DNA of 34,806 nt from the NCBI GenBank assembly GCA_017474925.1, contig JAFVGN010000013.1:1-34806 (forward strand). The letters are read 5' to 3'. Origin of the DNA: Prevotella sp. Lineage in GTDB: Bacteria; Bacteroidota; Bacteroidia; Bacteroidales; Bacteroidaceae. The stretch's first letter is position 1, and each line of letters starts with the position of its first letter. This document shows positions 9,122 to 30,608 of this stretch, one piece after another. Below the pieces are notes generated by a model, which made no database searches, had not been told where the DNA came from, and saw only the letters and a program-made list of their open reading frames with translations. The position numbers were made by a program, and so were the translations under genes.

Positions 9122-9130
9122 TAAATTTCG

Positions 9131-9138
9131 TACCTTTG
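9131..9138 (+). promoter_or_regulatory. Bacteroidetes -7 element of pgk
   Basis: TACCTTTG about 50 bp upstream of the pgk ATG; a good -33 TTTG is not evident because the region is filled by heptamer repeats. Confidence 0.65.
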
Positions 9139-9189
9139 TAGCTGTTTAAATTTGAAAGTTTAATTATTCGAATTATTAATATTAGCATT

Positions 9190-10461
9190 ATGACAATCAA
9201 CGAAATGAATTTTGCCGGTAAGAAGGCAATTGTACGTGTAGATTTTAACGTACCTCTGGACGAGAATGGTAAAATAACTGACGACACCCGCATCCGCGGT
9301 GCTCTTCCCACCCTGAAGAAGATTCTGGCTGACGGTGGTGCTGTCATCATCATGTCGCACATGGGCAAGCCCAAAGGCAAGGTGGATATGAAGAAATCGC
9401 TGGGTCAGATTCGCGAGGCCGTTGAAAAGGCATTAGGCGTTCCCGTGGCTTTTGCTCCCGACTGCGCCAAGGCTCAGGAGCAGGCTGCTGCCCTGAAGAT
9501 GGGTGAAGCCCTGTTGCTGGAGAACCTGCGTTTCTATCCTGAGGAGGAAGGCAAGCCTGTAGGCGTTGAGAAGGGAACTCCTGAATACGACGAAGCCAAG
9601 AAGGCCATGAAAGCCAGCCAGAAGGAGTTTGCCAAGACACTGGCTTCCTATGCTGACTGCTATGTGATGGACGCCTTTGGTACTGCTCACCGTAAACACG
9701 CATCCACCGCTGTCATTGCCGACTACTTTGATGCTGACAACAAGATGCTCGGTCTGCTGATGGAAAAAGAAGTACAGGCTGTTGACAACGTGCTGTCAAA
9801 CATTAAGCGTCCGTTCGTTGCCATCATGGGAGGATCGAAGGTATCTTCTAAGATTGGTATCATTGAGAACTTGCTGGGCAAGGTTGACAAGCTCATTCTC
9901 TGCGGTGGTATGACCTATACTTTTGCCAAGGCTCATGACGGTGAAATCGGTGACTCTATCGTTGAGCTCGACAAGCTGGATGTAGCTCTGGGCGTAGAGG
10001 CTCTGGCCAAGAAGAACGGTGTTGAGCTGGTTCTGGGAACTGACTGCACAGCCACCAATGGTTTGGACTTCGATACCATGACTGTAAAGCCCGGTTCAGA
10101 AATCATCAACTGCCCCAGCGACAAGGTTCCTGCAGGTTTCGAGGGTGTGGATGCCGGTCCTGAGAGCCAGAAGGCATTCGCTGATGCTATCGAGGGTGCC
10201 AAGACTATCCTGTGGAATGGTCCTGCCGGTGTCTTCGAGTGCGACGATTTCACAGCCGGAAGCCGCGCTATTGGCGATGCTATTGCCAAGGCTACTGCCG
10301 AGGGAGCTTTCTCACTCATTGGTGGTGGTGACTCTGTGGCTTGCGTCAACAAATTTGGCCTGGCCGATCAGGTAAGCTACATCTCTACTGGTGGCGGTGC
10401 CCTGCTCGAAGCTATTGAGGGTAAGGTGCTCCCAGGTGTAGCAGCCATCAAAGGCGAATAA
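9190..10461 (+). CDS. pgk: Phosphoglycerate kinase
   Basis: Cytosolic glycolytic enzyme transferring phosphate between 1,3-bisphosphoglycerate and ADP to give 3-phosphoglycerate and ATP. Seen: the signature [16 protein letters not shown] near the N-terminus, [35 protein letters not shown], the hinge/nucleotide region [27 protein letters not shown] and the C-terminal [13 protein letters not shown] and [13 protein letters not shown]. Length 423 matches Bacteroidales enzymes. Codon use is strongly biased, as expected of a highly expressed gene. It has its own promoter; a lipoprotein gene follows 42 bp later. Confidence 0.98.
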
Positions 10462-10503
10462 TCTTTGACCCCAGTGCAAAGAACTGATTTAAAAGCAAAC
10501 GGA

Positions 10504-11376
10504 ATGAAACACATTCTTATATTATTAGCGATGGTCGCAGCTCTTACAGCTTGCGGCCATCGTGCTTCTGACGGCAACGCACAGCAGTTTGCCGTAGACA
10601 GCATCGGACTGGATCGAGAGGACTCAACAACCTGTATCAAGATCAGCGTAGACTGGCCCACGAGTGGCAACAAGGCATTGCAAGACAGCATTCGCCAGTA
10701 CATTTGTGAGGAACTGGCTGTCAAGCCATACGAGGAAGGGAAACCGGAGGCAAAGATATACGATGACGGAAAAAGCGCCATCGAGGCAACCTCCAAGGAA
10801 AACTACGAGTTTATGCAGACCAGAAAAGAGGAAGCCAACAGCGAAGGATGGGGTCAAGGCATGCAGTTCTCGCTTTATATAAACATCTTGAAGATGGACG
10901 AGAGCGACACGTACGTAACCTATTTATCGAAGAACGAAGGCTTTATGGGTGGTGCCCACGGCTATGCGCTGGCAACAGGTCAGACTTTTCGCAAGAGCGA
11001 CGGCAAGCGGATTGGCTACAGTACGGAATACAACCAAGAGACAGAAAGCTTTGAAATCAAGAACCAAACACTTTTTGCCGATACGAAGTCACCCAAGCTG
11101 GCAGCTCTCATCAAGGAAGGTGTGCGCAGCTACTTCACGGATTTCGATGAGGACGTGTCTTCCGACGAGCGTCTAAAGGACATACTCAATGGTGTGGACG
11201 ACGTGAACAACATTCCGCTTCCAAGTGACGCACCCTGCTTCACTAAAGAAGGACTTTCCTTCTGTTACCAGCAGTACGAGATAGCTCCCTACGCCGTAGG
11301 ATTGATCAGCTTCACGATACCCTATGCTGAGATTCGTCCTTTCCTGACAGCTGACGCCCAAGATTTGATAAAATAA
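10504..11376 (+). CDS. DUF3298/RsiV-like lipoprotein
   Basis: A 290-residue predicted lipoprotein. The start at 10504 (MKHILILLAMVAALTAC) is preferred over an upstream ATG at 10465 because it places the signal peptide and lipobox LTAC|G at the N-terminus. The rest matches the DUF4163-plus-DUF3298 architecture known from RsiV and many Bacteroidetes periplasmic proteins: YVTYLSKNEGFMGGAHGYALATGQTF is the characteristic 'GGAHG' segment, and the end (SFTIPYAEIRPFL) the closing strand. In RsiV this fold binds lysozyme, but no sigma-factor anchor is present here, so the role is unknown. Located behind pgk with no obvious functional tie. Confidence 0.8.
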   Translation: MKHILILLAMVAALTACGHRASDGNAQQFAVDSIGLDREDSTTCIKISVDWPTSGNKALQDSIRQYICEELAVKPYEEGKPEAKIYDDGKSAIEATSKENYEFMQTRKEEANSEGWGQGMQFSLYINILKMDESDTYVTYLSKNEGFMGGAHGYALATGQTFRKSDGKRIGYSTEYNQETESFEIKNQTLFADTKSPKLAALIKEGVRSYFTDFDEDVSSDERLKDILNGVDDVNNIPLPSDAPCFTKEGLSFCYQQYEIAPYAVGLISFTIPYAEIRPFLTADAQDLIK

Positions 11377-11394
11377 AACGATTACGTTTAATAT

Positions 11395-11422
11395 TTCATA
11401 ATTCATGATTCGTCATTCGTAA
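11395..11422. repeat. 7-bp tandem array (4 units), intergenic
   Basis: Four heptamers TTCATAA, TTCATGA, TTCGTCA, TTCGTAA between the lipoprotein gene and the next promoter, ending 8 bp before the -7 box at 11431. Confidence 0.8.
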
Positions 11423-11430
11423 TTATTTAT

Positions 11431-11438
11431 TATCTTTG
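11431..11438 (+). promoter_or_regulatory. Bacteroidetes -7 promoter element
   Basis: TATCTTTG, 29 bp before the ATG at 11468; probably drives the small protein plus the three dehydrogenase/lactonase genes downstream. Confidence 0.65.
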
Positions 11439-11467
11439 CATCGTAAAACTATTTAAAACTAAAAAAT

Positions 11468-11722
11468 ATGAGCAAGAAATTTCTAATTGGAGACCGCACG
11501 AAGGACGAGTGGATTTCTGTACTGGACACTGAGAACAAGAAACTGGAGTTTACCAACCATCTGGCATCAGCCAAGGAGTTCAAGGGTTTCGAGGACACCA
11601 AGAATGAGCTGAAGAAGTTGATAGAACAGACTGGAGGCTATTTCCAGGACCTTCAGGTTTATGTCCTGGGAGAAGACAACAAAGCTCACCGTCCGGACGA
11701 ACGCGACATGATGCCGTGGTAA
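11468..11722 (+). CDS. Small conserved-looking protein of unknown function
   Basis: An 84-residue, charged, soluble protein without signal peptide or membrane segment, starting MSKKFLIGDRTKDEW and ending in DERDMMPW. It has its own promoter and normal codon use, and its stop is 16 bp before the aldo/keto reductase start, so it is probably the first gene of that operon. I do not recognise the family. Confidence 0.7.
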   Translation: MSKKFLIGDRTKDEWISVLDTENKKLEFTNHLASAKEFKGFEDTKNELKKLIEQTGGYFQDLQVYVLGEDNKAHRPDERDMMPW

Positions 11723-11738
11723 AGTGAAGAATAGTAGC

Positions 11739-12686
11739 ATGCAATATCGAAAATTAGGAAAAACAGGATTAGAGGTGTCGGAGCTGGGCTTCGGCGCCTC
11801 TTCGTTGGGTGGTGTATTCCATTCTTTCAACGAGAACCGAGGCATTGATGCCGTGTTTGCTGCCGTCGAGGCTGGCATTAACATCATTGACGTGTCACCC
11901 TATTACGGTCACTACAAGGCAGAGACCGTGCTGGGCAAGGCCCTGAAGGACATTCCTCGCGACAAGTTCTATCTCTCTACAAAGGTGGGTCGTTACGGTA
12001 AGGACGGTGTCAACACCTGGGACTACTCTGCCCGTCGTGCCAAGGAAAGTGTCTACGAGAGCTTAGAACGTCTGCACATCGACTATATAGACATTATCAA
12101 TGTTCACGACATTGAGTTCCAAGGCCGTATGGAAGGTGGACTGCAGAAGGTAGTCGACGAGACACTACCTGCCCTACACGAACTGAAGAGCGAAGGAGTT
12201 GTCCGCCATGTGGGCATTACCGACTTGCAACTGGAGAACCTACAATGGGTCATTGAGCACTCAGAGCCGGGAATGGTGGAAAGCGTCATGAACTTCTGTC
12301 ACTACTGTCTTTGTGATGACAAGCTGATTGACTTTCTCGATTTCTTTGAAGAGCGCGGCATCGGTGTACTTTCAGCATCCCCCTTCTCGATGGGGCTGTT
12401 GACAGAACGCGGTGTACCCGACTGGCATCCGGCACCCAAGCCATTGGTGGAGGTCTGCAAGAAAGCAGCCGACTACTGCAAGACGAAAGGCTACCCCATT
12501 GAGAAGCTGGCCATGCAGTTCTCGTGCTCCAATCCCCGCATCGCCTCGACGGTATTTAGCACCACGCGTCCAGAAGCCATCAAGACCAATCTTGATTATC
12601 TGTCAGAACCGATGGACGAGCAACTGGTTCGTGAAGTGCGTGACATCATAGGTGACCAACAGCGTGTCAGCTGGGCAAATACTTAG
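11739..12686 (+). CDS. Aldo/keto reductase, L-galactose/L-fucose dehydrogenase-like
   Basis: NAD(P)-dependent oxidoreductase of the aldo/keto reductase fold, 315 residues. Start at 11739 (MQYRKLGKTGLEVSELGFG), the canonical family N-terminus, rather than an upstream GTG. Seen: the catalytic set D (NIIDVSPYYG), Y, K (LSTKVGRYG) and H (INVHDIEF), followed by VRHVGITD and a C-terminal cofactor region (STTRPEAIKTNLDYL). The sequence style (SSLGGVFHSFNENRGI, DYSARRAKESVYESLERLHIDYIDIINVHDIEF) is that of L-galactose dehydrogenases and related L-fucose/L-rhamnose oxidising enzymes. The next genes, a lactonase-type amidohydrolase and a zinc dehydrogenase, support oxidation of an L-sugar to a lactone. 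Confidence 0.8.
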   Translation: MQYRKLGKTGLEVSELGFGASSLGGVFHSFNENRGIDAVFAAVEAGINIIDVSPYYGHYKAETVLGKALKDIPRDKFYLSTKVGRYGKDGVNTWDYSARRAKESVYESLERLHIDYIDIINVHDIEFQGRMEGGLQKVVDETLPALHELKSEGVVRHVGITDLQLENLQWVIEHSEPGMVESVMNFCHYCLCDDKLIDFLDFFEERGIGVLSASPFSMGLLTERGVPDWHPAPKPLVEVCKKAADYCKTKGYPIEKLAMQFSCSNPRIASTVFSTTRPEAIKTNLDYLSEPMDEQLVREVRDIIGDQQRVSWANT

Positions 12687-12704
12687 GATATCAACAGTTG
12701 CGTT

Positions 12705-13616
12705 ATGACTACCATTATTGATGCACATGCACATCTGTGGCTGAATCAGGATACCATTGTCAATGGTTTCCCTATTTACCAACTGGAGCCTAATCGTAGC
12801 CGTTCGCTGTTCTTTGGCGAGGAGCGACAAATGCTGCCGCCTTGGATGACTGACGGCCAGAATACCGCAGAACGGTTTCTGTCGAACATGGACTATGCGC
12901 AGGTCTCTGCTGCCGTCATCACACAGGAGTTCATCGACGGTCTGCAGAACAGCTATCTCATGCAAGTGCAGCGTCGCTATCCTGAACGTTTCTTTTGTTT
13001 TGGCATGCCTGAAACACGCCAACCAGGTTTCCTTGATGAGGCAAAAAGCCTGATCCAAGAAGGCTTCCGCGGTATCAAGATTCCTGCCGCCCGATTGCCA
13101 CAGCAGTTTCTGAATGACGAGATGATGCAGATGTTCTGCCTGATGGAGCAGCATGGTATCATCCTCGGCATCGAACTGGCTGACGGTGATGCGCAGGTGT
13201 CCCAGATGGAAGAAGTCATCCAGCAATGCCCACTATTGAAGATTGCCATCGGCCACTTCGGCATGGTGACACGTCCCAACTGGATGAGCCAGATACGTCT
13301 GGCCCGCCACAAGAACGTCTACATCGAGAGCGGTGGTATCACTTGGCTCTTCAACGACGAGTTCTACCCTTTCCCATCGGCCATTCGTGCCATCCGTGAG
13401 GCTGCCGATGCCGTTGGTATGGAGAAACTGATGTGGGGTTCGGACTATCCACGCACCATCACAGCCATCACCTACCGCATGTCGTACGACTTCGTCACTA
13501 AGAGCAAGGATCTGACGGACGGTGAGAAGCGTCTATTCCTCTCAGACAACGCAAAAATGTTCTTTGGATTCGGAGACTTAATAGAATTACCGTATATTAA
13601 AAATATGAGCGAATGA
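12705..13616 (+). CDS. Amidohydrolase family 2, probable sugar lactonase
   Basis: A 303-residue metal-dependent hydrolase of the amidohydrolase-2 group, which includes L-fuconolactonase and related sugar lactonases. Seen: HxH motif IDAHAHLW (H8, H10), the lysine/strand GFRGIKIPAARLP, the metal-ligand histidine IAIGHFGM, and the terminal aspartate in LMWGSDYPR. It starts 18 bp after the aldo/keto reductase and overlaps the zinc dehydrogenase start by 4 bp (ATGA), so the three are one operon. The expected job is opening the lactone produced by the reductase to a free aldonate. Substrate identity is inference from gene order. Confidence 0.78.
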   Translation: MTTIIDAHAHLWLNQDTIVNGFPIYQLEPNRSRSLFFGEERQMLPPWMTDGQNTAERFLSNMDYAQVSAAVITQEFIDGLQNSYLMQVQRRYPERFFCFGMPETRQPGFLDEAKSLIQEGFRGIKIPAARLPQQFLNDEMMQMFCLMEQHGIILGIELADGDAQVSQMEEVIQQCPLLKIAIGHFGMVTRPNWMSQIRLARHKNVYIESGGITWLFNDEFYPFPSAIRAIREAADAVGMEKLMWGSDYPRTITAITYRMSYDFVTKSKDLTDGEKRLFLSDNAKMFFGFGDLIELPYIKNMSE

Positions 13617-14629
13617 AAGCAATACAAATTACCGAACCTTCCGTGATGAAGGTTGTAGACATGGAGAAGCCTCTGTGTGGCGCTGACGAGGTGCTGCTGA
13701 AGATTCACTATGTCGGCTTTTGCGGTAGTGACCTGAACACCTACCGCGGACTGAACCCCATGGTGAAGATGCCCGTTATTCCTGGGCATGAGATTGGTGC
13801 CGAGATAGCCGAGACAGGGGCTAACGTACCAGCCCACCTGAAGCAGGGCATGGCCGTCACCGTCAATCCCTATACCAACTGCGGACATTGTCCCTCTTGC
13901 AAAAACCGTCGCTACAACGCCTGCGAGCATAATGAGACACTCGGTGTACAGCGCAATGGCGCCATGCGCGAATATATTGCCTTACCTTGGCAGAAAGTGA
14001 TCCCCATCGGAAACATTACCGTCGAGCATGCAGCCATTATCGAACCGATGTCTGTTGGCTTCCATGCCGTCAGCCGCGCACAGGTGGTCGATACTGACAC
14101 CGTTATGGTCATCGGCTGTGGCATGGTAGGTGTAGGTGCCGTGGTGAGAGCCATCATGCGTGGCGCTAAAGTCATCGCCTGCGACATGGATGACGAGAAA
14201 CTTGCCATAGTCCGTGACTTAGGTGCAGAGTACACCATCAATTCGGCCAAGGAGAATGCCCATGAGCGTCTGCAAGAGATAACTGGCGGTACTGGTCCTG
14301 ATGTTGTCATCGAGGCCGTCGGTGCTCCTGCCACCTACCAGATGGCAGTCAACGAAGTGGCTTTTACTGGCCGCGTAGTCTGCATCGGCTATGCCAAGCA
14401 GGACGTTTCGTTCACCACGAAGCTCTTTGTACAGAAAGAACTCGATATCCGAGGCTCGCGCAATGCCCAGCCTGAGGACTTCGAGGGTGTCATCCGATAT
14501 CTGGAAAAGAACAACCCTCCATACGACATTCTCATTTCCAACGAGGTAACACCCGAACATGCTGAAGAGGCCATGCAACAATGGATGCAGGCTCCTGCCA
14601 AAGTATTCCGCATCCTAGTGAAATTCTGA
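13613..14629 (+). CDS. Zinc-dependent alcohol dehydrogenase, L-galactonate/sugar-acid oxidoreductase-like
   Basis: Medium-chain dehydrogenase, 338 residues. Seen: catalytic zinc site GFCGSDLNTYRG with the following GHEIGAE, the structural zinc cluster NCGHCPSCKNRRYNAC, the NAD-binding VIGCGMVGVGAVVRAI and the acidic residue after it (ACDMDDEKL), which favours NAD over NADP. The sequence belongs to the group that oxidises sugar acids and polyols (L-galactonate 5-dehydrogenase, threonine/sorbitol dehydrogenase relatives). As the last gene of the operon it would oxidise the aldonate formed by the lactonase. No dehydratase or aldolase is present next to it, so the later steps must be elsewhere. 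A bidirectional terminator follows. Confidence 0.8.
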   Translation: MKAIQITEPSVMKVVDMEKPLCGADEVLLKIHYVGFCGSDLNTYRGLNPMVKMPVIPGHEIGAEIAETGANVPAHLKQGMAVTVNPYTNCGHCPSCKNRRYNACEHNETLGVQRNGAMREYIALPWQKVIPIGNITVEHAAIIEPMSVGFHAVSRAQVVDTDTVMVIGCGMVGVGAVVRAIMRGAKVIACDMDDEKLAIVRDLGAEYTINSAKENAHERLQEITGGTGPDVVIEAVGAPATYQMAVNEVAFTGRVVCIGYAKQDVSFTTKLFVQKELDIRGSRNAQPEDFEGVIRYLEKNNPPYDILISNEVTPEHAEEAMQQWMQAPAKVFRILVKF

Positions 14630-20031: not shown

Positions 20032-22926
20032 ATGAATACTTGGAAACCGAACCTCGAAGAGACTAAACAACGATACATTAACTGGTGGAACCACAAGGGC
20101 ATCGTGCTAAATATGTGGGAACACTTCCAAGAAGGCGTCAAGCCCTCTGCCGACATACCGGCACCCCAACCATACAAGGACCTGAATCAACGATGGTTCG
20201 ACCCAGAGTGGAGAGCAGAATACTTAGACTGGTATGTCGCCCACTCGTGCCTGAAAGCCGACATGCTGCCAGTAGCCAACACGCAACTGGGGCCCGGTTC
20301 GCTGGCCGCCATCCTCGGTGGCGTCTTTGAAGGGGGCGAGGACACCATCTGGATTCACCCCAACCCCAACTATTCAGACGACATCACATTCGACCCGAAT
20401 CATCCGAACTATTTGTTACACAAGGAACTGCTGAAAGCCTGCAAGAAGAAAGCCCAAGGGCACTACTACGTCGGCATGCCTGACCTGATGGAAGGACTCG
20501 ACGTACTGGCTGCGCTGAAAGGCACCGACAAAGTGCTCCTCGACACGGTGATGCAGCCTGAGGTGCTGGAACACCAGATGCAACAGATAAACGACATCTA
20601 CTTCCAGGTTTTCGACGAGCTCTATGACATCATCCGCGAGGGTGACGAGATGGCCTTCTGCTACTTCTCGAGCTGGGCACCAGCCAAGATGTCAAAATTG
20701 CAGAGCGACATTTCGACCATGATCAGCACCGATGACTACCGCCGTTTCGTCCAACCGTTTATCCGCCAGCAATGCCAGAAGATTGACTATACACTCTACC
20801 ATCTGGACGGAGTGGGTGCCATGCACCATCTGGATGCGCTGCTTGAAATCGACGAGCTAAACGCCATACAATGGACACCAGGAGTGGGCGAGCCACAAGG
20901 CGGCAGTCCCAAATGGTACGACCTCTACAATAGGATATTGGCTAACGGCAAGAGCATCATGGCCTGCTGGGTGACATTGGACGAGCTACGTCCCCTGCTC
21001 GACCATATCGGTGGCGATGGTGTCCATATAGAGATGGACTTCCACAACGAGCATGAGGTAGAACAGGCGATGACCATCGTCGAGGAATACCGCCATGCCC
21101 GTAACCTGCACCCATCCCGTCTCAAGACCAATCCCGTAGTCGGTGGTTCTCCCACAGACAATGCAGACTCCGAAGTCGCCGCCATCATCGAAAGAATTGA
21201 GCAACAGACTCACACAGACACTCTGAAACAGTCTGAAACAGTCCGCTGTCGCCAGCTGCTCCATGATGACCGCCTTCTTGTCCTTGACGGAGCCATGGGT
21301 ACCATGATACAGCAATACCAACTGCGAGAAGAGGACTTTCGCGGATACCAGTTTGCCCAGCATTCCTACGATCTCAAAGGATGCAACGACATCCTGTCGC
21401 TGACATGTCCCTTTGTCATTCGCGACATCCACCAAAAATACCTACAGGCTGGTGCTGACATCATCGAGACCAATACATTCAATGCCCAACGCATATCGAT
21501 GAGCGACTACGGTTTACAGGATGATTGTCGTGACATCAACCTTGCCGCTGCCAAGATTGCCAGACAATGTGCCGATGAGTATTCCACGTCCGACAAGCCC
21601 CGCTATGTGGTGGGCAGTATAGGACCTACCAACCGAACGACCTCTGTAGCCACCAGCGGTGAGCCACTGGATAAGGCAATGCTGCAAGAAGCCTATGCAG
21701 AACAAATACAGGCTCTTGCAGACGGTGGTGTAGACGCCCTGCTGATAGAGACCATCTTTGACACCGAGAATGCCCGCGTAGCCATTGACGCAGCCAGAGC
21801 CGTTGCCCCACAGCTGCCCCTCATGCTGAGTTTCTCCGTATCGACACCTGACGGACATAACATGTTAGGACAAGACATACAGCAATTCATCAGCACGTTA
21901 GACCTCAATGGCATCATCTCGGTAGGCATTAACTGTGTGGCGGACATTCGTGGCATGTTACCGCTGGTCAGTCAACTGGCGCGATTCGGCACCAAGATAA
22001 GCCTCTACCCCAATGCGGGACTACCCGATGGGAACGGGCACTATAGCAAAACACCCGAAGACCTTGTGTCCGAGCTATGGATGCTGCTTGAGAATCACAT
22101 GCTGAACATCGTCGGTGGATGCTGCGGTACAACCGATGCACACATCGGCCTCATAGCCCGTGCCATCGAGCCCATTCCTGGGTTAAGACTATCGCCCCAC
22201 TCAGCAAAGGAAGAACAGCGGACATACGAAGCTACAAGCGTCATATCCAAGAACGACCACCAAGCTCAACAAATACAGGAAACTGCAGCATGTGCTGAGG
22301 AACGGCTGTATCATGCCATATTGGACGGCAAGAGCGAAGAGGCAGAATCGGCCACCCGCGAAGCCTTAGCCCAGCACATTGCACCACAAGACCTGATTAA
22401 CGGCCAGATGATACGGGCCATGGGCGAAGTCGGTCAGCGTTTTCAGGACGGTAAGGCCTTCGTCCCTCAGCTATTGATGGCCGGACGGGCCATGAAGGCA
22501 GCTCTCGAACTGCTGAAGCCTATGCTGGCAGGCACCACTTCCACAGCGTTGGGCAAGGTTGTCATCGGCACCGTCAAAGGTGACTTGCATGACATTGGGA
22601 AAAACCTCGTTGCATCCATGCTCGAGGGCTGCGGCTTCGAGGTCGTCAACATCGGCATCGACGTATCTGCCGACACCTTCATCCAAGCCGTCAAGGAGAA
22701 CCAGCCCGACATCCTGTGCATGTCGGCCCTGCTCACCACAACGATGGGCTATATGAAGGAAGTCATCAATGCCCTGGAGGCAGCAGGCATCCGTCAGCAG
22801 GTGAAGGTCATGGTTGGCGGAGCCCCTGTCACACAAGGATTTGCTGATGAGATTGGTGCCGACGGCTATAGCGACAATGCCAATTCGGCCGTCACCGTGG
22901 CCAAGCAACTATTGGGAAAGCTATAA
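20032..22926 (+). CDS. Three-module corrinoid methyltransferase: URO-D + homocysteine methyltransferase + B12 domain
   Basis: A 964-residue single protein with three modules. Residues ~1-365 resemble uroporphyrinogen-decarboxylase-fold corrinoid methyltransferases (the TCP2-like group), but the zinc motif position reads H257-L-D259-G instead of H-x-C. Residues ~400-720 are a MetH-type homocysteine S-methyltransferase barrel: LVLDGAMGTMIQQ, the thiol-zinc cysteines C635 (VGINC) and C697/C698 (GGCCGT). Residues ~760-964 are a corrinoid cap plus Rossmann module with the B12 lower-ligand motif D851-x-H853-x-x-G856 (GDLHDIGKN). MetH's methyl-folate domain and its reactivation domain are absent. 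Expected role: move a methyl from an unknown donor through cob(I)alamin to homocysteine, giving methionine, or to another thiol. A lipoprotein gene follows after 30 bp. The separate reactivation-like protein is convergent nearby. No signal peptide; cytoplasmic. Confidence 0.88.
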   Translation: MNTWKPNLEETKQRYINWWNHKGIVLNMWEHFQEGVKPSADIPAPQPYKDLNQRWFDPEWRAEYLDWYVAHSCLKADMLPVANTQLGPGSLAAILGGVFEGGEDTIWIHPNPNYSDDITFDPNHPNYLLHKELLKACKKKAQGHYYVGMPDLMEGLDVLAALKGTDKVLLDTVMQPEVLEHQMQQINDIYFQVFDELYDIIREGDEMAFCYFSSWAPAKMSKLQSDISTMISTDDYRRFVQPFIRQQCQKIDYTLYHLDGVGAMHHLDALLEIDELNAIQWTPGVGEPQGGSPKWYDLYNRILANGKSIMACWVTLDELRPLLDHIGGDGVHIEMDFHNEHEVEQAMTIVEEYRHARNLHPSRLKTNPVVGGSPTDNADSEVAAIIERIEQQTHTDTLKQSETVRCRQLLHDDRLLVLDGAMGTMIQQYQLREEDFRGYQFAQHSYDLKGCNDILSLTCPFVIRDIHQKYLQAGADIIETNTFNAQRISMSDYGLQDDCRDINLAAAKIARQCADEYSTSDKPRYVVGSIGPTNRTTSVATSGEPLDKAMLQEAYAEQIQALADGGVDALLIETIFDTENARVAIDAARAVAPQLPLMLSFSVSTPDGHNMLGQDIQQFISTLDLNGIISVGINCVADIRGMLPLVSQLARFGTKISLYPNAGLPDGNGHYSKTPEDLVSELWMLLENHMLNIVGGCCGTTDAHIGLIARAIEPIPGLRLSPHSAKEEQRTYEATSVISKNDHQAQQIQETAACAEERLYHAILDGKSEEAESATREALAQHIAPQDLINGQMIRAMGEVGQRFQDGKAFVPQLLMAGRAMKAALELLKPMLAGTTSTALGKVVIGTVKGDLHDIGKNLVASMLEGCGFEVVNIGIDVSADTFIQAVKENQPDILCMSALLTTTMGYMKEVINALEAAGIRQQVKVMVGGAPVTQGFADEIGADGYSDNANSAVTVAKQLLGKL

Positions 22927-23430: not shown

Positions 23431-24102
23431 CTAACGCGACGGCAACGTCGAAGTCTCTCCAGCAACCTTGCGTTTATAGCATTTCTCGAAGTTACAGAGT
23501 CCGCAGGAATAGTCAAGCCTGCGGACTTTTTTGCCCAGACCGATGATGCCGCTGACAGACTTGATAGGTAACATGAGAGAAGAGTCTGTCAACACCACGC
23601 CACAAGTGTGCCCCTCGAACAACGGGAAAAGCTTTTGCTGCTGGGACACATGCCAGCCACAGTATCCTGGTGAGAAGCGGTTGGTGTGACACCATCCCAG
23701 CTTATCTATCGAATCCTGCAGATGCTGTTCCATCTGGTCTGCACATTTCTCAGCAATGACAGACCCCAAGGCATCTGCAATGAACATACGCACCATGTCA
23801 CCGTCCTGTTTCAGCCTTTGCTGATAGGCCTCATACTCCACGCCACAGGTACAGACAAAAAGGGCATACGCCTCCGCACCCTGCAACTGGCGCAGGATAA
23901 TCTTTCCCATGTCAAAGTCGGGCAAGTCGCGAACGACGATATAGCAGAACCGTGGACGGAGCCAGCACTTCACGTCGCTGATAACGGCCTGCGTCTCTCG
24001 TCGCGTCTCATCGTCAGGTTCTTCTCCGTGATAACCCATCTGGTCATAGACATCAACAAGGTCTATACGAAGCTCATCATATGTCAGCGTCTTCTGTGTC
24101 AC
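23431..24102 (-). CDS. MetH-activation-domain-like protein with C-terminal Cys cluster
   Basis: A 223-residue stand-alone relative of the methionine synthase reactivation domain, which reloads oxidised corrinoid using an electron and S-adenosylmethionine. Seen: NRFSPGYCGWHVSQQQKLFPLF, corresponding to the 'PGY' region of MetH, then GVVLTDSSLMLPIKSVSGIIGLG, the 'L-T-x-S...P..SVSG' core. The C-terminal CGLCNFEKCYKRK resembles the cysteine clusters of corrinoid reactivators in anaerobes and might hold an Fe-S cluster. Its start overlaps the stop of the upstream URO-D methyltransferase by 4 bp (ATGA), so they are one operon. Its likely client is the B12 module of the convergent fusion protein, which lacks its own activation domain. 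A plus-strand terminator is embedded in its 3' end. Confidence 0.75.
   Translation of the reverse strand: MTQKTLTYDELRIDLVDVYDQMGYHGEEPDDETRRETQAVISDVKCWLRPRFCYIVVRDLPDFDMGKIILRQLQGAEAYALFVCTCGVEYEAYQQRLKQDGDMVRMFIADALGSVIAEKCADQMEQHLQDSIDKLGWCHTNRFSPGYCGWHVSQQQKLFPLFEGHTCGVVLTDSSLMLPIKSVSGIIGLGKKVRRLDYSCGLCNFEKCYKRKVAGETSTLPSR
23498..23532 (+). terminator. Intrinsic terminator inside a convergent coding sequence
   Basis: Perfect 10-bp stem AGTCCGCAGG (23498-23507), 10-nt loop, CCTGCGGACT (23518-23527), then five more T. It points along the plus strand, 80 bp after the lipoprotein stop, yet lies within the C-terminal codons of the minus-strand activation-like gene (the part encoding the CGLC cysteines). 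Confidence 0.75.
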
Positions 24103-25106
24103 AGCCTGTTAAAATCGTTGAGCGCCTCAAAGAAGGCGCTGATGTTTGCCGCAGACGTATGGGGAGGCGTGTCGCAGCCACTTGAAAGCACAAAGTTAGG
24201 ATAGGGCCTCATCTTCTCCAACAGGTCCGTAACCGTCTGCCGCATCTGAAAAGGCATGCCGTCCTTGAATACCGACACAGGGTCGATGTTTCCCATGGCC
24301 AGGGCAGTCGGGGGAACATCCCTGATGACCTCTTCCATCCTGCACTTGTTGCCAAAGTGGTAGGCCGCAGCACCTGTCGACACCATGGCCTTGGTACAAT
24401 GGCCCGTGTTGCCACAATTATGGAGAATGACGATAAAGCTGTCATCCTGAACCCTGTCGACGATGCGCTTGACGTATTGGGACGAAAAGGTGCTACAGTC
24501 GTCGTTCGACATCAGTCCGGCAGCAGGCTCAGCCATCATCACGCCATTGGCGCCCGTCTCCTTCAGGGCCATACAGTATTTCTCGATGAAGTCAGTACAC
24601 TTTCCGAGCAGCTCGTGGGCAACCTCAGGATGTTCATAGATGAGCACCATGATATCCGACATATCATAAAGTCGCCCTGCCAAGGAGAAGGGTCCGATAC
24701 AGCCTGCAAACAGCGGGCGATCCTGTATCTCTTTTGCTGCCAACAGGTTTGCCTTCAAATAGGCAGGAATGCGTCCTGCCGACAACGAAGGGACTTGCAA
24801 CTGACGGATAGACTCCACATCGGGCAACAGGCGTCCTGAAACTGCCGGAACAGCATCGTCAGAAAAAGCGATATCCGCACCGAAAGCTTCTGCCTCGGTA
24901 GTCAAATCCATAATGGTACACGCAGCAGCACTGGGATACCGTTCCGTCAAAGCCATTACGGCCTCATAGTGTACCCTGCCGTCGCTGACGGCCCTACGCA
25001 CCGTTTGGCCGTTCATCTCGATACCAGGGTGTGTCATAATGGGCACAGCCAGTACATTCTTCTGCCTGATGACATCTGCCACCCATTGTTTCATGTTCTG
25101 TTTCAT
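24099..25106 (-). CDS. URO-D-type corrinoid:thiol methyltransferase (MtaA/CmuA-like)
   Basis: A 335-residue protein of the uroporphyrinogen-decarboxylase fold used by MtaA, MtbA and CmuA to move methyl groups between corrinoid proteins and thiols or donors. Seen: the zinc motif H229-N-C231-G (ILHNCGNT) and the third ligand C311 (LSSGCDTPP), plus PIMTHPGIEM at the N-terminus, GPFSLAGRLY, and ANGVMMAEPAAGLMS. True heme-pathway URO-D lacks this H-x-C...C zinc site, which argues for methyl transfer. First gene of an operon with the activation-like protein (4-bp overlap). It probably exchanges methyl groups with the B12 module of the fusion protein; its donor or acceptor is unknown. Confidence 0.83.
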   Translation of the reverse strand: MKQNMKQWVADVIRQKNVLAVPIMTHPGIEMNGQTVRRAVSDGRVHYEAVMALTERYPSAAACTIMDLTTEAEAFGADIAFSDDAVPAVSGRLLPDVESIRQLQVPSLSAGRIPAYLKANLLAAKEIQDRPLFAGCIGPFSLAGRLYDMSDIMVLIYEHPEVAHELLGKCTDFIEKYCMALKETGANGVMMAEPAAGLMSNDDCSTFSSQYVKRIVDRVQDDSFIVILHNCGNTGHCTKAMVSTGAAAYHFGNKCRMEEVIRDVPPTALAMGNIDPVSVFKDGMPFQMRQTVTDLLEKMRPYPNFVLSSGCDTPPHTSAANISAFFEALNDFNRL

Positions 25107-25231: not shown

Positions 25232-26746
25232 ATGAAGAAGCTACTAACCTTGCTTTTTTGCATGGCTGCCAGCCTGACAACGATGGCAGAGAATGATCAT
25301 ACCCCCCGTACCATTGTTGTACAACCAGGCGAAAACCTGCACGATGCCCTGCGCCAGGCCCGCGAATGGCGGCGCACCCAGGACGCCTGCTGTCAGGGAG
25401 GCATCACCATACGCATCAAGGCCGGACGATACCGCATGCAGGATCCTCTCTTCCTACGTCCTGAAGACAGCGGGACAGCAGACTCACCGATCATCATCGT
25501 TGGCGAAGAGGGTGCCGTCATCTGTGGAGATTCCCGTCAGCAGCATACGCAGGTGTGGCCTAAGGAGGGAATGGAACGCATACTTGCTTTCGATACAAAG
25601 ACACGAACGATAACCATCCCTGCATTCGATTCGCTATGGGTTCCGCCTCCACATCTGGAAATGGTCGTTCACCAACGCTGGGCCATTGCCATCCTCCGTG
25701 TTAAGGAGATGAAGCAAAAAGACGGGAAAATCGTGGTGTCCTTCATGGAACCAGAGAGCCGTCTGGAATTCGAGCATCCTTGGCCGCAGCCCGTCATCGA
25801 CGGTGAGCGAGGCAACAGCTCGTTCCAGCTGCGCACCACAGAGCAGCGCGACGGCATCGAACAACTGGTCATCGTCGATGGAGCCAACCATATTTCTTTC
25901 CAGGGCCTCACCTTTGAGCACACCTGCTGGAACCGTCCGCTACACAAGGGGCATGTCACCCTCCAGGGTGGTTTCCCCTTGATTGACGCCTACAAGCTTG
26001 CAGTTCCAGGTTTACCCTGGGACAGAGACCTCGAAAACCAAGCCTGGATAGAACGCCCCGTTAGTGCCGTCACCATCCGTAATGCCGAGAACGTCATGGT
26101 CAGCAAGTGCCGTTTCCAACACCTTGCTGCCACCGCCCTCGACCTTCAGGACAACACAAGACATTGCTCCGTCGTCAATAACCACTTCGAGGACATTGGC
26201 GGTACGGCCATCATGGCGGGGTCGTTCGCAGAGAGTCCGCGCGAGGTACACCGTCCCTACGACGACCTGGCCGGACGCTGTCAGGATATAGACATCTCTG
26301 GCAACGAGATACACGATGCTACCAACGAAGACTGGGGCACGGTAGCCATCAGCTGCGGATACGTGAGCGATACGCGCATCATGCACAACACCGTGAGTCA
26401 TGTCAACTATTCGGGCATCTGTGTCGGCTGGGGATGGACGCCTTGCCATACAGGCATGGAGCGTAACCGTATTGATAAGAATAAGGTCAGCGACTATGCC
26501 CGTCAGCTTTACGATGCAGGCGGCATCTACACGCTGTCGAACCAACCTGGTTCCACCATCAGCGACAACGACATCAGCCAGCCCTACCCTGCTCCGTACG
26601 CCACCAACAACCGCGGCTTCTGCATCTATCTCGATGCCCATACCGACGGTTTTACCATTGAGAATAATCAAACAGAGGGCCGTCTCATCCGCCGCGACGA
26701 GATTGGTGACAACCACCCAGGTCCGAGCCTTATCTTCAAACAATGA
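25232..26746 (+). CDS. Secreted right-handed beta-helix protein, putative glycoside hydrolase
   Basis: A 504-residue exported protein (signal peptide MKKLLTLLFCMAASLTTMA). Residues ~30-75 carry the opening GENLHDALRQAREWRR...GITIRIKAGRYRM typical of parallel beta-helix polysaccharide enzymes. Repeating coils follow from ~200 (ISFQGLTFEH, VTIRNAENVMVSKCRFQHL, IDISGNEIHDA, TRIMHNTVSHVNYSGICVGWGW, TISDNDIS). The layout resembles the GH141-type helices (alpha-L-fucosidases/xylanases) and relatives such as GH110/GH120, but I cannot fix the family. It overlaps the GH31 gene by 4 bp and leads a three-gene operon with that enzyme and a symporter. It would act on a glycan outside the cytoplasm. Confidence 0.75.
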   Translation: MKKLLTLLFCMAASLTTMAENDHTPRTIVVQPGENLHDALRQAREWRRTQDACCQGGITIRIKAGRYRMQDPLFLRPEDSGTADSPIIIVGEEGAVICGDSRQQHTQVWPKEGMERILAFDTKTRTITIPAFDSLWVPPPHLEMVVHQRWAIAILRVKEMKQKDGKIVVSFMEPESRLEFEHPWPQPVIDGERGNSSFQLRTTEQRDGIEQLVIVDGANHISFQGLTFEHTCWNRPLHKGHVTLQGGFPLIDAYKLAVPGLPWDRDLENQAWIERPVSAVTIRNAENVMVSKCRFQHLAATALDLQDNTRHCSVVNNHFEDIGGTAIMAGSFAESPREVHRPYDDLAGRCQDIDISGNEIHDATNEDWGTVAISCGYVSDTRIMHNTVSHVNYSGICVGWGWTPCHTGMERNRIDKNKVSDYARQLYDAGGIYTLSNQPGSTISDNDISQPYPAPYATNNRGFCIYLDAHTDGFTIENNQTEGRLIRRDEIGDNHPGPSLIFKQ

Positions 26747-29046
26747 AACAGACCAACTACCATCTTTTCGACTTCATGGACTTCGATCCGACTCTTCAGA
26801 AGGACGAAGCCCTCTGGAAAGCATACGCCCCCTCGAAGGTTGAGGAACACGACGGCGACATAGTGTTGACCATCCCCTATCAGAAGCAGCTGCACCAAGA
26901 GGACATGGCGCCTGACACCGCTGCCAGTCAGCAGAGTTACGACCTCATCGTCCGCGCTTACGAGCCCAACATCGTCCGTCTCTTTACCACCATGAACGGC
27001 GACCAGATGGCTGAGGATGACGACATGCTGCAGTTCTCTCCTGACATCAGGCGACTGCCGCTCTCGTATGACGGATGCGGCAACATCACGGCCGCCAACG
27101 GCAAGACGCTTGCCAACATCGACCTGTCTGTTCACCCTATCGACCACTGGAGCGACCTGCAACCGGCTCCCCAGCCGGCACCGTTCATCACGTTCTATCC
27201 TGACGGTGACCCTCAGAAAGGCATCGCCCTGAGCGACGACCACTTCTCGCCGCCACGCTATGATGCGTTGCCGCTGGGTTTCTGCAGCGTATGTTCCGAA
27301 CCTGTCGCTACGCCCCACAACGAGCGGGCTACCATCAGTTTCCGCTGCGAGCCTGACGAGTGTTTCGCAGGCACGGGCGAACGTTTTCGCAAAATGGACC
27401 TCAGCGGACAGACCTTCCAGCTCAAGAACCAGGACGGACAAGGTGTCAACAACCGCCGCTGCTACAAGAACATCCCGTTCTACCTGAGTAGCAGAATGTA
27501 CGGTTGCTTCTACCATACTTCCGACTACTGCAAGTTGTCGCTGGCCGACCACAGCACACGCTCCATACAGTTCCTCAACGACTACGCCACGCTGGACGTA
27601 TTCCTCATAGGAGGACAGACGCCAGAGGAGATACTACGCTCCTACCGCATGCTGACCGGTTTCCCGCCCATGCTGCCGCTCTGGTCGTTTGGCATCTGGA
27701 TGAGCCGCATGACCTACTTCTCTGCGGACGAGGTCAACGAGATATGCGACAGGTTACGCGCAGAGCACTATCCCTGCGATGTCATCCATCTGGACACAGG
27801 CTGGTTCCGCACCGACTGGCTCTGCGAATGGACGTTCAATCCAGAGCGGTTCCCCGACCCTCAGGGCTTCATCCGAAAGCTGGCAGACCAAGGCTTCAAG
27901 GTGTCACTCTGGCAGCTGCCCTACATCGCTGCCGGCGCTGAGCAGATAGGCGAGGCGAAACGCAACCACTACATCAGCCAGCCCCAGTCGGAGGAGAATA
28001 CCTCGACGGGAGGCGCCTCCAACTTCTCGGCACTCGACTATGCCGGCACCATCGACTTCACCTACGACCGCGCCACCGACTGGTATAAGAACGCCTTGCT
28101 GAAGCCCCTGCTGGAGATGGGTGCCAAATGCATCAAGACCGATTTTGGCGAGAACATCCACATGACCCACCATTACCATGCCATGCCACCCGAACGGCTG
28201 AACAATCTCTATGCCCTGCTCTACCAGCGTGCAGCCTATGAAGTGACTCAGGAAGTGACGGGCGACGGCATCGTATGGGCCCGTGCTGCGTGGGCAGGCT
28301 GCCAGCGCTATCCTCTCCATTGGGGCGGCGACTCTGAATCGTCATGGGCAGGACTTGCAGGCTCGCTGAAGGGCGGCTTGCATTTCGGACTGTCGGGCTT
28401 TGCCTTCTGGAGTCATGACGTACCTGGATTCCATTCCACCCCCAACTTCATGAATTCGCCCATCGACCCTGATGTCTATGTCCGCTGGACACAGTTTGGC
28501 GTTTTCTCCTCTCACATGCGCTATCACGGCTCCTGCAAGCGCGAACCCTGGCACTATCCAGGCATAGCCCCCATTGTCAGACGCTGGTGGAAGCTGCGTT
28601 ACAAGCTCATGCCCTACATCATCGGGCAGGCTGAGCAATGTACCCAGAGCGGCTATCCCATGATACGTGCCCTCTTGTTCCATCATCCCCACGACCGTCA
28701 GGCGTGGCACATCGACGACGAATACTACTTTGGGACGGCGTTCCTTGTCTGTCCCGTCATGAACAGCAACAATCGCCGCGACATCTACCTGCCCGCGCCC
28801 TCACCCCAGTCTGCAGCCAGCGCCACGGAAGAGGATGCCAACACGTGGGTCAACCTGTTCACGGGCGAGCGCCTGGCTGGTGGCCGATGGTACTACGATG
28901 TGGAAGTTCCTCTTGACCAGATACCTGTCTTCGTGCGCCCAGGGACACGCATACCCCTCTACCTTGACGAGGTTGACAGTACCGACCAGATGGACCTCTC
29001 GAAAGCTGTTACAATAGAAATAACCAACGATTTTAAAGGAATATAA
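26743..29046 (+). CDS. GH31 family alpha-glycosidase, probably alpha-xylosidase
   Basis: A 767-residue (alpha/beta)8-barrel hydrolase of family GH31. Seen: an N-terminal beta-sandwich, then PMLPLWSFGIWMSRMTYF, the nucleophile D467 in IKTDFGE and the acid/base D530 in WGGDSESSWAGL, with GFAFWSHDVPGF and SHMRYHG later. KTDFGE and the WGGDS form are those of YicI-like alpha-xylosidases rather than alpha-glucosidases. It has no signal peptide, so it acts in the cytoplasm on imported oligosaccharides. Start overlaps the beta-helix gene (ATGA); stop overlaps the symporter start (TAATG), so the three genes are translationally coupled. Confidence 0.88.
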   Translation: MKQTNYHLFDFMDFDPTLQKDEALWKAYAPSKVEEHDGDIVLTIPYQKQLHQEDMAPDTAASQQSYDLIVRAYEPNIVRLFTTMNGDQMAEDDDMLQFSPDIRRLPLSYDGCGNITAANGKTLANIDLSVHPIDHWSDLQPAPQPAPFITFYPDGDPQKGIALSDDHFSPPRYDALPLGFCSVCSEPVATPHNERATISFRCEPDECFAGTGERFRKMDLSGQTFQLKNQDGQGVNNRRCYKNIPFYLSSRMYGCFYHTSDYCKLSLADHSTRSIQFLNDYATLDVFLIGGQTPEEILRSYRMLTGFPPMLPLWSFGIWMSRMTYFSADEVNEICDRLRAEHYPCDVIHLDTGWFRTDWLCEWTFNPERFPDPQGFIRKLADQGFKVSLWQLPYIAAGAEQIGEAKRNHYISQPQSEENTSTGGASNFSALDYAGTIDFTYDRATDWYKNALLKPLLEMGAKCIKTDFGENIHMTHHYHAMPPERLNNLYALLYQRAAYEVTQEVTGDGIVWARAAWAGCQRYPLHWGGDSESSWAGLAGSLKGGLHFGLSGFAFWSHDVPGFHSTPNFMNSPIDPDVYVRWTQFGVFSSHMRYHGSCKREPWHYPGIAPIVRRWWKLRYKLMPYIIGQAEQCTQSGYPMIRALLFHHPHDRQAWHIDDEYYFGTAFLVCPVMNSNNRRDIYLPAPSPQSAASATEEDANTWVNLFTGERLAGGRWYYDVEVPLDQIPVFVRPGTRIPLYLDEVDSTDQMDLSKAVTIEITNDFKGI

Positions 29047-30608
29047 TGGAAAGCCACTACATGCAAGATCTGGACTGGCTCATCTTAGCCATCTACTTCG
29101 TCGTGCTCATCACCATCGGACTATGGGCAAGTTCCAAGCGCAAGAAAGGCGGTTCGCTCTTTCTGGCAGAACACTCGCTGCGCTGGCATCACATCGGCTT
29201 CTCCATGTGGGGCACCAACGTAGGTCCGTCCATGCTCATAGCCAGTGCTTCGGCAGGTTTCACCACGGGCATCGTGTCTGGCAACTATGCCTGGTACGCC
29301 TTCATCTTCATAGCACTTCTGGCCTTTGTCTTTGCTCCCCGCTATTTAGGGGCCAAGGTCTCCACGCTGCCTGAGTTCATGGGGTTGCGCTTCGGACAGT
29401 CAACGCGTAACATACTGGCTTGGTACACTATTGTCACCATCGTCATCTCATGGCTTGCCCTGACGCTGTTTGCCGGAGGCATCCTCATCCGCCAGGTGTT
29501 CGACATACCCATGTGGATGTCAGCCCTCGTCCTGCTCGTCATCTCCGCCTTCTTCACCATGCTCGGTGGTCTGAAGGCCGTGGCCTATACCAATGTCTAC
29601 CAGATGATCTTACTCATCGTCGTGTCGCTGGTCCTCGTCATCGTCGGACTGGACCGTGTGGGTGGTGTGGCAGCATTGGTCGACAAGGTGCCTGCCGACT
29701 ACTGGATCATGTTCAAGCCCAACAGCGACGAGGCCTTCCCCTGGCTTCCCATCGTCCTCGGCTATCCCGTCATGGGCGTCTGGTTCTGGTGTACCGACCA
29801 GTCGATGGTACAGCCCGTGCTGGCTGCCAAAGACCTGCGCGAGGGACAACTCGGCACCAACTTCACCGGTTGGCTGAAGATACTCGACGTGGCGCTCTAC
29901 ATCCTGCCGGGAATACTCTGCTTCGCCCTGTTCGGCGACACGCTGCAGAACCCTGACGAGGCCTACCTCACCATGGTGGAGAACCTCTTCCCCGTGGGTA
30001 TGGTCGGACTGGTCTTTGCCGTACTGACCGCCTGTCTGGTGTCCACCATCGGCTCTGCGCTGAATGCCCTCAGTACCGTATTCACGATGGACATCTACGT
30101 CAAGCGTTTCCGTCCCAACGCCTCGCAGCGCCGCATCAACTTCGTGGGGCGCCTGGTCACCGTCATCGGAGCTTCCCTTGCCATCGTACTGACCATCGCC
30201 ATCGACGCCATCAAGGGGCTCAACCTGTTCAATGTGTTCCAGTCAGTCCTTGGATTCATCGCCCCACCCATGTCTGCTGTTTTCGTGCTGGGCATCTTCT
30301 GGAAACGCTGTACCACGCGTGCCGCCAACTTTGCCCTCACCATTGGCACGGCCTTCTGCCTCATCGTCGGTGTGCTGTACCTCTGGCCACCAGAGAGCCT
30401 CAGCCTCCCCTGGCCCCACTTCATGCTGCTCTCGTTTGAGCTGTTCGTCCTCCTCGTCGTCTCGATGGTCATCATCAGTCTGACCGATAGCGACAAGACG
30501 GTGTACGACATCCCCGCCCCCATCCATGAGCCGTGGTCCAAGCTGGCCATCAGCCTCTGGACGGCTTTGGCTGTCGTCATGGTGGGACTATACATCTTCT
30601 TTAACTAA
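29046..30608 (+). CDS. Sodium:solute symporter (SSS/SGLT family)
   Basis: A 520-residue inner-membrane transporter with about 13-14 hydrophobic segments. Seen: the sugar-class signatures GTNVGPSMLIASASAGFTTGI, the inverted-repeat region GGLKAVAYTNVYQMILLIV and WFWCTDQSMVQPVLAAKDL (the SGLT 'WYWCTDQ' substrate-site motif), then GLVFAVLTACLVSTIGSALNALSTVFTMDIY carrying the sodium-site serines. Third gene of the operon with the beta-helix protein and GH31 enzyme, so it probably imports the mono- or oligosaccharide the exported enzyme releases. It converges on the M15 peptidase gene with only 12 bp between stops. Confidence 0.9.
   Translation: MESHYMQDLDWLILAIYFVVLITIGLWASSKRKKGGSLFLAEHSLRWHHIGFSMWGTNVGPSMLIASASAGFTTGIVSGNYAWYAFIFIALLAFVFAPRYLGAKVSTLPEFMGLRFGQSTRNILAWYTIVTIVISWLALTLFAGGILIRQVFDIPMWMSALVLLVISAFFTMLGGLKAVAYTNVYQMILLIVVSLVLVIVGLDRVGGVAALVDKVPADYWIMFKPNSDEAFPWLPIVLGYPVMGVWFWCTDQSMVQPVLAAKDLREGQLGTNFTGWLKILDVALYILPGILCFALFGDTLQNPDEAYLTMVENLFPVGMVGLVFAVLTACLVSTIGSALNALSTVFTMDIYVKRFRPNASQRRINFVGRLVTVIGASLAIVLTIAIDAIKGLNLFNVFQSVLGFIAPPMSAVFVLGIFWKRCTTRAANFALTIGTAFCLIVGVLYLWPPESLSLPWPHFMLLSFELFVLLVVSMVIISLTDSDKTVYDIPAPIHEPWSKLAISLWTALAVVMVGLYIFFN

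Follow-up and report, generated by a model that had tools for sequence, protein, structure and literature searches.

A predicted single-chain corrinoid demethylase and methionine synthase in a pectin-sugar gene neighbourhood of Prevotella

Contig JAFVGN010000013.1 of a Prevotella sp. assembly (GCA_017474925.1), of which positions 1 to 34,806 are the window analyzed here, encodes a 964-residue protein that joins an N-terminal module (N-module), a MetH-type homocysteine barrel and a corrinoid module in a single chain. From which compound would such a protein take a methyl group, and to which acceptor would it pass it? Judging from sequence, we put at roughly 0.6 the probability that this single chain O-demethylates a methylated pectin sugar through its corrinoid and makes methionine with the methyl group. 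In its mode of action it is likely to resemble the corrinoid methyltransferase systems, homocysteine being the acceptor; for the donor, gene context makes an O-methyl sugar of rhamnogalacturonan II (RG-II) the most probable choice, with 2-O-methyl-xylose as the leading candidate. The modules, the conserved residues, the fusion itself and the gene linkage are read directly; the donor, the order of the steps, the roles of the GH31 enzyme and the symporter, and methionine as the product are what we infer. The parts of the gene are as follows.

20032–22926, plus strand: three-module protein of 964 residues (N-module, homocysteine barrel, corrinoid module), from the open reading frame and Pfam.
20032–21099, plus strand: N-module, residues 1–356, with a UroD-like fold, the predicted methyl-donor (MT1) domain, from AlphaFold2/Foldseek, conservation and stand-alone copies in other families.
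20800–20802 and 20806–20808, plus strand: codons of H257 and D259 in the N-module.
21100–21264, plus strand: variable linker 1, residues 357–411, of species-dependent length and sequence (median nonsynonymous divergence, dN, 0.81 versus 0.07 in the N-module).
21265–22179, plus strand: MetH-type homocysteine barrel, residues 412–716, with zinc cysteines C635, C697 and C698, from PF02574 (E 1.5e-84), conservation and a tree.
22180–22290, plus strand: variable linker 2, residues 717–753, from length and sequence variation and high dN.
22291–22917, plus strand: corrinoid module, residues 754–962, with D851-x-H853-x-x-G856, from PF02607 and PF02310, its best corrinoid-protein model being MtgC.

The open reading frame at 20032–22926 starts with ATG and is free of internal stops. 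A scan of genome contigs with the N-module gave 313 relatives, and locus counts throughout refer to the best 80 of these 313; two of the 80 (L072 and L079) come from one assembly, and the locus survey shares at least six contigs with the genome surveys described below. All three modules lie in one frame in 75 of the 80 loci, mostly from Prevotella; three loci (Phocaeicola vulgatus ATCC 8482, P. sartorii and Bacteroides sp. UBA7335) encode the N-module and the B12 module without the barrel, in about 600 residues, and two run off the contig edge inside the chain. Relative to the window, the median dN is 0.07 in the N-module, 0.23 in the barrel and 0.09 in the B12 module, versus 0.81 and 1.46 in the two linkers (39, 38, 59, 27 and 26 pairs, respectively, being those of 79 with a computable synonymous divergence, dS, which at about 1.7–2.0 is near saturation). 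The shared frame in 75 loci, together with the low dN of the modules and the high dN of the linkers, rules out an assembly join or a chance frame. The single 964-residue, three-module frame described in an earlier sequence-only reading thus stands, and the assembly join which that reading named as what would undo it did not occur. In the fusions of L033 and L038, linker 1 contains short, species-specific tandem peptide repeats, where repeated DNA seems to expand. In L079, an antisense open reading frame of 1077 residues (9986–13219, minus strand) spans the entire fusion gene, probably by a chance of codon usage.

The second and third modules belong to well-known families. Pfam matches S-methyl_trans (PF02574) at residues 416–711 (E 1.5e-84), B12-binding_2 (PF02607) at 756–829 (E 9.9e-24) and B12-binding (PF02310) at 841–954 (E 1e-29), the domains that had been expected there, and the genome survey recovers the three-module order in the 75 loci mentioned above. 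In a sequence search of the PDB up to E 1, the barrel retrieves methionine synthases, and the matches to the corrinoid part are corrinoid proteins (e.g., 1y80 and 7xcn). The zinc cysteines and the D-x-H853-x-x-G motif occur at the positions given in the sequence-only reading, and in a 92-row alignment they are conserved in every row with a letter there: C635 in 80 of 80, C697 and C698 in 79 of 79, and D851, H853 and G856 in 84 of 84; the zinc cysteines are kept wherever the barrel is present. In NCBIfam, the best model for the barrel is metH (TIGR02082), at 497.2 bits below its cut-off of 1010.85, and those for the corrinoid part are MtgC (NF047996; 223.3 bits, cut-off 370), TIGR02370 (202 bits, cut-off 215.3) and the MtbC model, all below their cut-offs. 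The Pfam scan found no pterin-binding (folate) barrel (PF00809) and no activation domain on the chain, which stops after the B12 domain; the MetE-type catalytic domain (PF01717) was found neither on the fusion protein nor in its own genome, which is 64% complete. By MetH's defining features in the sequence, the fusion is not a MetH.

What, then, is the module that occupies the donor position? The Pfam scan of the full protein gave no match upstream of residue 416, residues 1–365 alone gave a single chance match (E 0.089) in Pfam up to E 10, and none of the best stretches of the PDB search fell within the N-module, which also has no match in NCBIfam. By predicted structure, in contrast, the 18 best Foldseek matches in the PDB to its AlphaFold2 model are all members of the UroD family (E 1.1e-5 to 2.3e-3, 14 of them at 0.001 or better; TM 0.37–0.55), among them the methylcobalamin:coenzyme M methyltransferase of M. 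mazei (4ay8; E 2.1e-5, TM 0.53/0.55). A UroD fold is therefore likely on the model, as the sequence-only reading had it, whereas the Pfam URO-D model (PF01208) gives no match above cut-off in the window. In the fused L125 its match is weak and below cut-off (E 0.067), and L130 has no match. All 92 rows of the N-module alignment have H257 and D259, and 84 have C312, which is replaced by Ser in five and by Asn in three. Enzymes of the MtaA type carry an H-x-C ... C zinc-site motif, which is present in the alignment of an MtaA-like family encoded beside the fusion; the N-module lacks this motif and has H257-x-D259 at the matching place. The replacement of Cys by Asp would suit oxygen-bound methyl groups.

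Five distant relatives that the N-module hidden Markov model (HMM) finds in other Bacteroidales were scanned: G881 (E 5e-44), G761 (2e-11), G920 (4e-5), G821 (4e-4) and G041 (6e-4), of which four match Pfam URO-D weakly and below cut-off (E 0.0019–0.052) and G881 does not match; G920, G821 and G041 have H-x-C at the position of H257-x-D259. The same model finds 18 of 399 genomes at the family level, 12 of 295 at the order level and 1 of 295 at the class level, own genome counted in each. By frame length, the 18 family matches comprise seven three-module, seven two-module and four single-module sizes, module content having been checked directly for part of them. Besides 8 of 35 other same-genus genomes searched, the full fusion is found in two order-level genomes of another family (G824 and G923), and the N-module is a single gene in G054 and G041, of other families; the modules also occur as separate genes elsewhere in Bacteroidales. 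The fusion is conserved and present in many rumen and gut genomes of the Prevotella group, and the series from separate genes through two modules to three suggests how such an enzyme was assembled. In a 40-row tree with rows chosen for spread, 20 fused barrels group together in a single clade that excludes the 19 MetH barrels (support 95/99).

Does the barrel indicate the acceptor? L141, whose modules are separate genes, encodes an activation protein, GH31, the N-module, a sodium:solute symporter (SSF) and a free-standing PF02574 protein of 294 residues (35% identical), all on one strand. The tree puts this PF02574 protein outside the fused clade, at the end of a very long branch, and its exact position is unsure. 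A homocysteine methyltransferase thus appears in the same setting by what is apparently a second route, which argues for homocysteine as the acceptor. In the two-module versions, an MtaA-like protein, present in all three such loci of the 80, may serve as the second methyltransferase, or the homocysteine barrel may come from elsewhere in the genome. In L121, a protein of the PNP_UDP_1 phosphorylase superfamily (13217–13900), convergent with the fusion, is possibly an S-adenosylhomocysteine/methylthioadenosine nucleosidase that would recycle homocysteine.

Methionine genes were surveyed in 16 three-module genomes (nine of the same genus including the own genome, five further, and two order-level genomes). 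A second homocysteine barrel, mostly in MetH-sized frames, occurs in 12, a MetE-type domain in 2, methylenetetrahydrofolate reductase (MTHFR) in 13 and MetA in all 16, so the fusion is usually an additional enzyme beside a second barrel. In three genomes (G004, G636 and G651, each 99% complete), neither a second PF02574 nor any PF01717 or PF02219 was found, flavin-independent MTHFR not having been searched; each has a single pterin-binding protein of dihydropteroate synthase (DHPS) size. In these three of 16, the fusion may be the only methionine synthase, with auxotrophy as the alternative; their gene content fits folate-independent methionine synthesis by the fusion, and such a function, raised in the sequence-only reading, is probable in light of them. 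That methyl-tetrahydrofolate is still the donor, with the UroD-like module acting as the folate barrel of a variant methionine synthase, is extremely improbable: MetE is counted in the UroD superfamily (PMC10418091) and most fusion genomes encode MTHFR, but PF02219 is not found in the three fusion-only genomes, the second barrels are mostly MetH-sized, and the stand-alone N-module is located in sugar clusters. We dropped the retention of MetA as a sign of prototrophy, because MetA is still present (73% identity; 2,179,054 of 2,521,238 bases examined) in the control G010, whose scan turned up neither MetH nor MetE nor the fusion. Five genomes of the same genus that are more than 90% complete (G010, G016, G017, G026 and G029) yielded no MetH, MetE or fusion, G016 having a 55-residue barrel fragment; they may be auxotrophs or possess a methionine synthase of unrecognized type. 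In the own genome (64% complete), MTHFR and MetA are present and no further homocysteine barrel was found.

The genes downstream of the fusion bear on the donor. Given with the number of the 80 loci that have the family within their flanks, they are:

23431–24102, minus strand: stand-alone B12 reactivation-domain protein, 223 residues (PF02965 Met_synt_B12, E 1.5e-13); 48 of 80.
24099–25106, minus strand: MtaA/CmuA-like UroD-family protein, 335 residues, with H229-x-C231 and C311 (PF01208, E 2.7e-56); 45 of 80.
25232–26746, plus strand: GH141 with a signal-peptide-like N-terminus, predicted to release 2-O-Me-Xyl-alpha1,3-Fuc (match to BT1002); 47 of 80.
26743–29046, plus strand: GH31, a predicted alpha-xylosidase of the cytoplasm, no signal peptide being evident (domain models, hydrophobicity); 45 of 80.
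29046–30608, plus strand: SSF symporter, predicted importer (PF00474, E 1.2e-56; TIGR00813 above cut-off); 40 of 80.

The activation domain, which the sequence-only reading gave as missing, is thus encoded separately, about 0.5 kb downstream of the fusion and convergent with it. The MtaA-like gene, likewise convergent, overlaps the reactivation-domain gene by four bases, and the GH141, GH31 and SSF genes have overlapping or touching ends. Rarer families in the flanks are GH78 (13 loci), GH127 (10), fucose isomerase (FucI; 6) and BT_1020-like proteins (4). Flanks of 5 kb or more on each side are available for 50 loci; GH141 or GH31 occurs in 36 of these, and one or more of GH141, GH31, GH127, GH78 and BT_1020-like proteins in 41. 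Many of the 80 loci lie at one chromosomal site, so not all are independent. We inspected 12 neighborhoods of versions without the fused barrel, from other genera and families (L040, L041, L104, L108, L111 and L141–L147), and found SSF in 12, GH31 in 11, GH141 in 10, the activation protein in 8 and the MtaA-like protein in 7. The sole one without GH31 is L041, which starts at the end of a contig and has SSF only; from the stretch of L143, GH141 and the activation protein are missing. Linkage in these barrel-less versions is better evidence than the 80 partly non-independent loci. L140, one of two fused loci from another family, has GH141, GH31 and SSF. In L111 (P. sartorii; 7750–13407), GH31 and SSF are each split into two frames, the cause being either decay or a sequencing error. 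An oxidoreductase of the GFO/IDH/MocA type adjoins the stand-alone N-module in two further Bacteroidales families (L141, 9130–10179; L142, 7110–8174), and a redox step on the sugar may accompany demethylation.

The MtaA-like neighbor might itself be the real O-demethylase and the N-module an accessory domain. Its family occurs in 45 of the 80 loci, including all three two-module loci, and keeps the H-x-C and a further Cys, with H229, C231 and C311 invariant in 19 aligned rows. However, no MtaA-like match exists in L141, L142, L146 and L147 (stretches of 13.8–19 kb), where the N-module stands with GH31 and SSF, and the H-x-C zinc site is typical of thiol methyltransferases; we regard this role as very improbable.

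The hydrolases, in turn, point to a particular sugar. The only PDB match of the window GH141 at E 0.001 is BT1002 (5mqp; E 2.3e-94), and Asp occupies both places aligned with its catalytic D523 and D564 (chain numbering +5). According to PMC10154630, BT1002 releases 2-O-methyl-D-xylose-alpha-1,3-L-fucose from chain A of RG-II, with D523 and D564 as catalytic residues, and another GH141 member is a xylanase. Bacteroides thetaiotaomicron, in which BT1001 is an alpha-rhamnosidase, is reported to cleave 21 of the 22 RG-II linkages, all but that in 2-O-Me-Xyl-alpha1,3-Fuc, and the disaccharide accumulates (PMC7939467); PMC12282258 likewise gives all but one linkage as cleaved. A crude hydrophobicity count makes a signal peptide evident in GH141 and not in GH31, whose best NCBIfam model is the alpha-xylosidase PRK10658 (443.5 bits, below the cut-off of 606). 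Proteins of the GH127, GH78 and BT_1020-like families have roles in RG-II breakdown in B. thetaiotaomicron, and their presence near some fusions fits such breakdown here. A methyl group on O-2 would block the isomerization of xylose, so demethylation would be required before the sugar could be used. The neighborhood thus points to an RG-II O-methyl sugar in place of the betaines, methylamines and methoxy compounds first suggested as donors.

In the proposed route, the secreted GH141 would free 2-O-methyl-D-xylose-alpha-1,3-L-fucose from RG-II side chain A, the SSF symporter would take up the disaccharide, and the cytoplasmic GH31 would split it. The UroD-like N-module would then demethylate 2-O-methyl-xylose (or the disaccharide itself) and hand the methyl group to Co(I) of the fused B12 module, the demethylated xylose would enter central metabolism, and the homocysteine barrel would pass the methyl group of methylcobalamin to homocysteine, yielding methionine. 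The neighboring activation-domain protein would rescue oxidized Co(II).

The same machinery might act on another sugar, such as 2-O-methyl-L-fucose of RG-II chain B or, e.g., 4-O-methyl-glucuronate, with GH141 and GH31 merely marking a pectin-degrading region. Both 2-O-methyl sugars occur in RG-II (PMC12168206, PMC12282258), FucI lies near the gene in six of the 80 loci (in L120 together with an MFS permease and a rhaM-family mutarotase), and the four BT_1020-like loci have no GH141 or GH31 within the examined flanks. GH31 and GH141 are, however, the commonest hydrolase partners, barrel-less versions included, although no search was aimed at GH139, the family of 2-O-methyl-fucosidases; a donor of this kind is unlikely. 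A non-sugar donor, with the N-module demethylating a small compound (a methoxyaromatic, a methyl thiol or a quaternary amine) and the linkage reflecting shared regulation, would agree with the range of UroD-superfamily methyltransferases, which include O-, S- and halogen-demethylases (PMC10418091, PMC13222342), and with MtgC as the best model of the B12 module. The linkage to glycoside hydrolases and the symporter in several families, and the lack of a Pfam, NCBIfam or PDB sequence match for the N-module, speak against it and make it decidedly unlikely.

Several observations weigh against 2-O-methyl-xylose demethylation by the fusion. The confidence of the fold model is modest (33 aligned rows, mean pLDDT 66.7, pTM 0.74), an hhalign comparison of the N-module alignment (11 rows) with the MtaA-like family was negative, and a wider 15-row alignment including the distant relatives reached a weak probability of 34, with H-L-D aligned with H-N-C. 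Cleaving an alkyl methyl ether is also harder than cleaving an aryl one. Neither GH141 nor GH31 is present in 14 of the 50 well-flanked loci, and 8 have none of GH141, GH31, GH127, GH78, BT_1020-like proteins and FucI, one of these eight (L049) having a distant GH31-like frame; all four BT_1020-like loci lack GH141 and GH31 within the examined flanks, and L139, the other fused locus of another family, has SSF only. HemW in 25 and EF-G in 22 of the 80 loci mark a common chromosomal site for many of them. The MtaA-like protein has no role in the proposed route, and, given G010, little can be concluded from the presence of MetA in the three fusion-only genomes. The nearest solved relative of the window GH31 is 5f7c (1151 bits; 1588 bits for the P. 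vulgatus copy), which is labelled an alpha-glucosidase and which we take to be from B. thetaiotaomicron. Since that organism reportedly accumulates the disaccharide (PMC7939467), this GH31 may not cleave 2-O-Me-Xyl-alpha1,3-Fuc.

Elsewhere in the window, genes for an aldo-keto reductase, an amidohydrolase and a zinc alcohol dehydrogenase stand in a row at 11724–14629. This trio is reminiscent of an oxidative fucose pathway; none exceeds its NCBIfam cut-off, and no more than 9, 11 and 11 of the 80 loci have the respective families close to the fusion. At 3948–7750, a 577-residue protein without a Pfam or NCBIfam match (E 0.001) is followed by a TonB-dependent receptor, which among NCBIfam models scores highest with the B12 receptor (117.5 bits, cut-off 599.7); the two are possibly a pair for B12 uptake. 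An 850-residue protein at 31326–33878 (minus strand), with a BT4734-like N-terminal domain and a weak PrimPol match, is possibly part of a mobile element. No Rfam match to a cobalamin riboswitch reached the gathering score within the window.

In its full form, the proposal is that an oxygen-free, B12-dependent demethylase of a sugar methyl ether helps to finish RG-II breakdown, delivers the methyl group to methionine and is the only methionine synthase of some Prevotella; this wider picture we put forward tentatively, as somewhat less than an even chance. If true, it would represent an anaerobic removal of a sugar methyl ether, the printed route that we found being oxidative (P450). It would also provide candidate genes, in rumen Prevotella and human gut Phocaeicola vulgatus, for the sole RG-II linkage that B. 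thetaiotaomicron reportedly leaves, and a methionine synthase supplied by the diet instead of by folate. Among the titles and abstract openings listed from the open-access literature, none describes such a fusion or corrinoid sugar demethylation.

Among known systems, MetH (TIGR02082) shares with the fusion the homocysteine barrel with three zinc cysteines, the cap and B12 domain with D-x-H-x-x-G, and the Met_synt_B12 reactivation domain, which here is a separate protein on a neighboring gene; unlike MetH, the fusion has no pterin (folate) barrel and carries the UroD-like module in its stead. The cap and B12 domain with this motif is also that of MtgC/MtbC-type corrinoid proteins. The UroD-superfamily corrinoid systems (the O-demethylases MtvB, OdmB, VdmB and MtoB, as well as CdmB and CmuA) likewise comprise a donor protein, a corrinoid protein, a second methyltransferase and an activating enzyme (PMC13222342, PMC10418091). 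In the present case, however, the homocysteine acceptor barrel is fused in the chain, H-x-D stands against the H-x-C of the MtaA-like family, and the activator is of the Met_synt_B12 type, not the Ram/RACE type; CmuA, with a donor module and a corrinoid module only, resembles the two-module version of Phocaeicola. In the split MtgBCDE system of Ruegeria pomeroyi, a corrinoid protein connects glycine betaine demethylation with a separate homocysteine subunit, but the donor protein MtgB comes from a different family (pfam06253), the system cannot do without its folate subunit MtgD, and the separate subunits serve marine aerobes (PMC12478193). The core methionine synthases MesA–MesD also make methionine without methyl-folate, MesA–C probably from a corrinoid protein, but they are related to the MetE catalytic domain (PMC7857596), whereas the fusion has a MetH-type barrel with its own donor and corrinoid modules. 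Finally, the P450 demethylation of 6-O-methyl-D-galactose also takes a methyl ether off a polysaccharide sugar; that route is oxidative and yields formaldehyde, whereas the route proposed for the fusion would run without oxygen and conserve the methyl group (PMC10033563).

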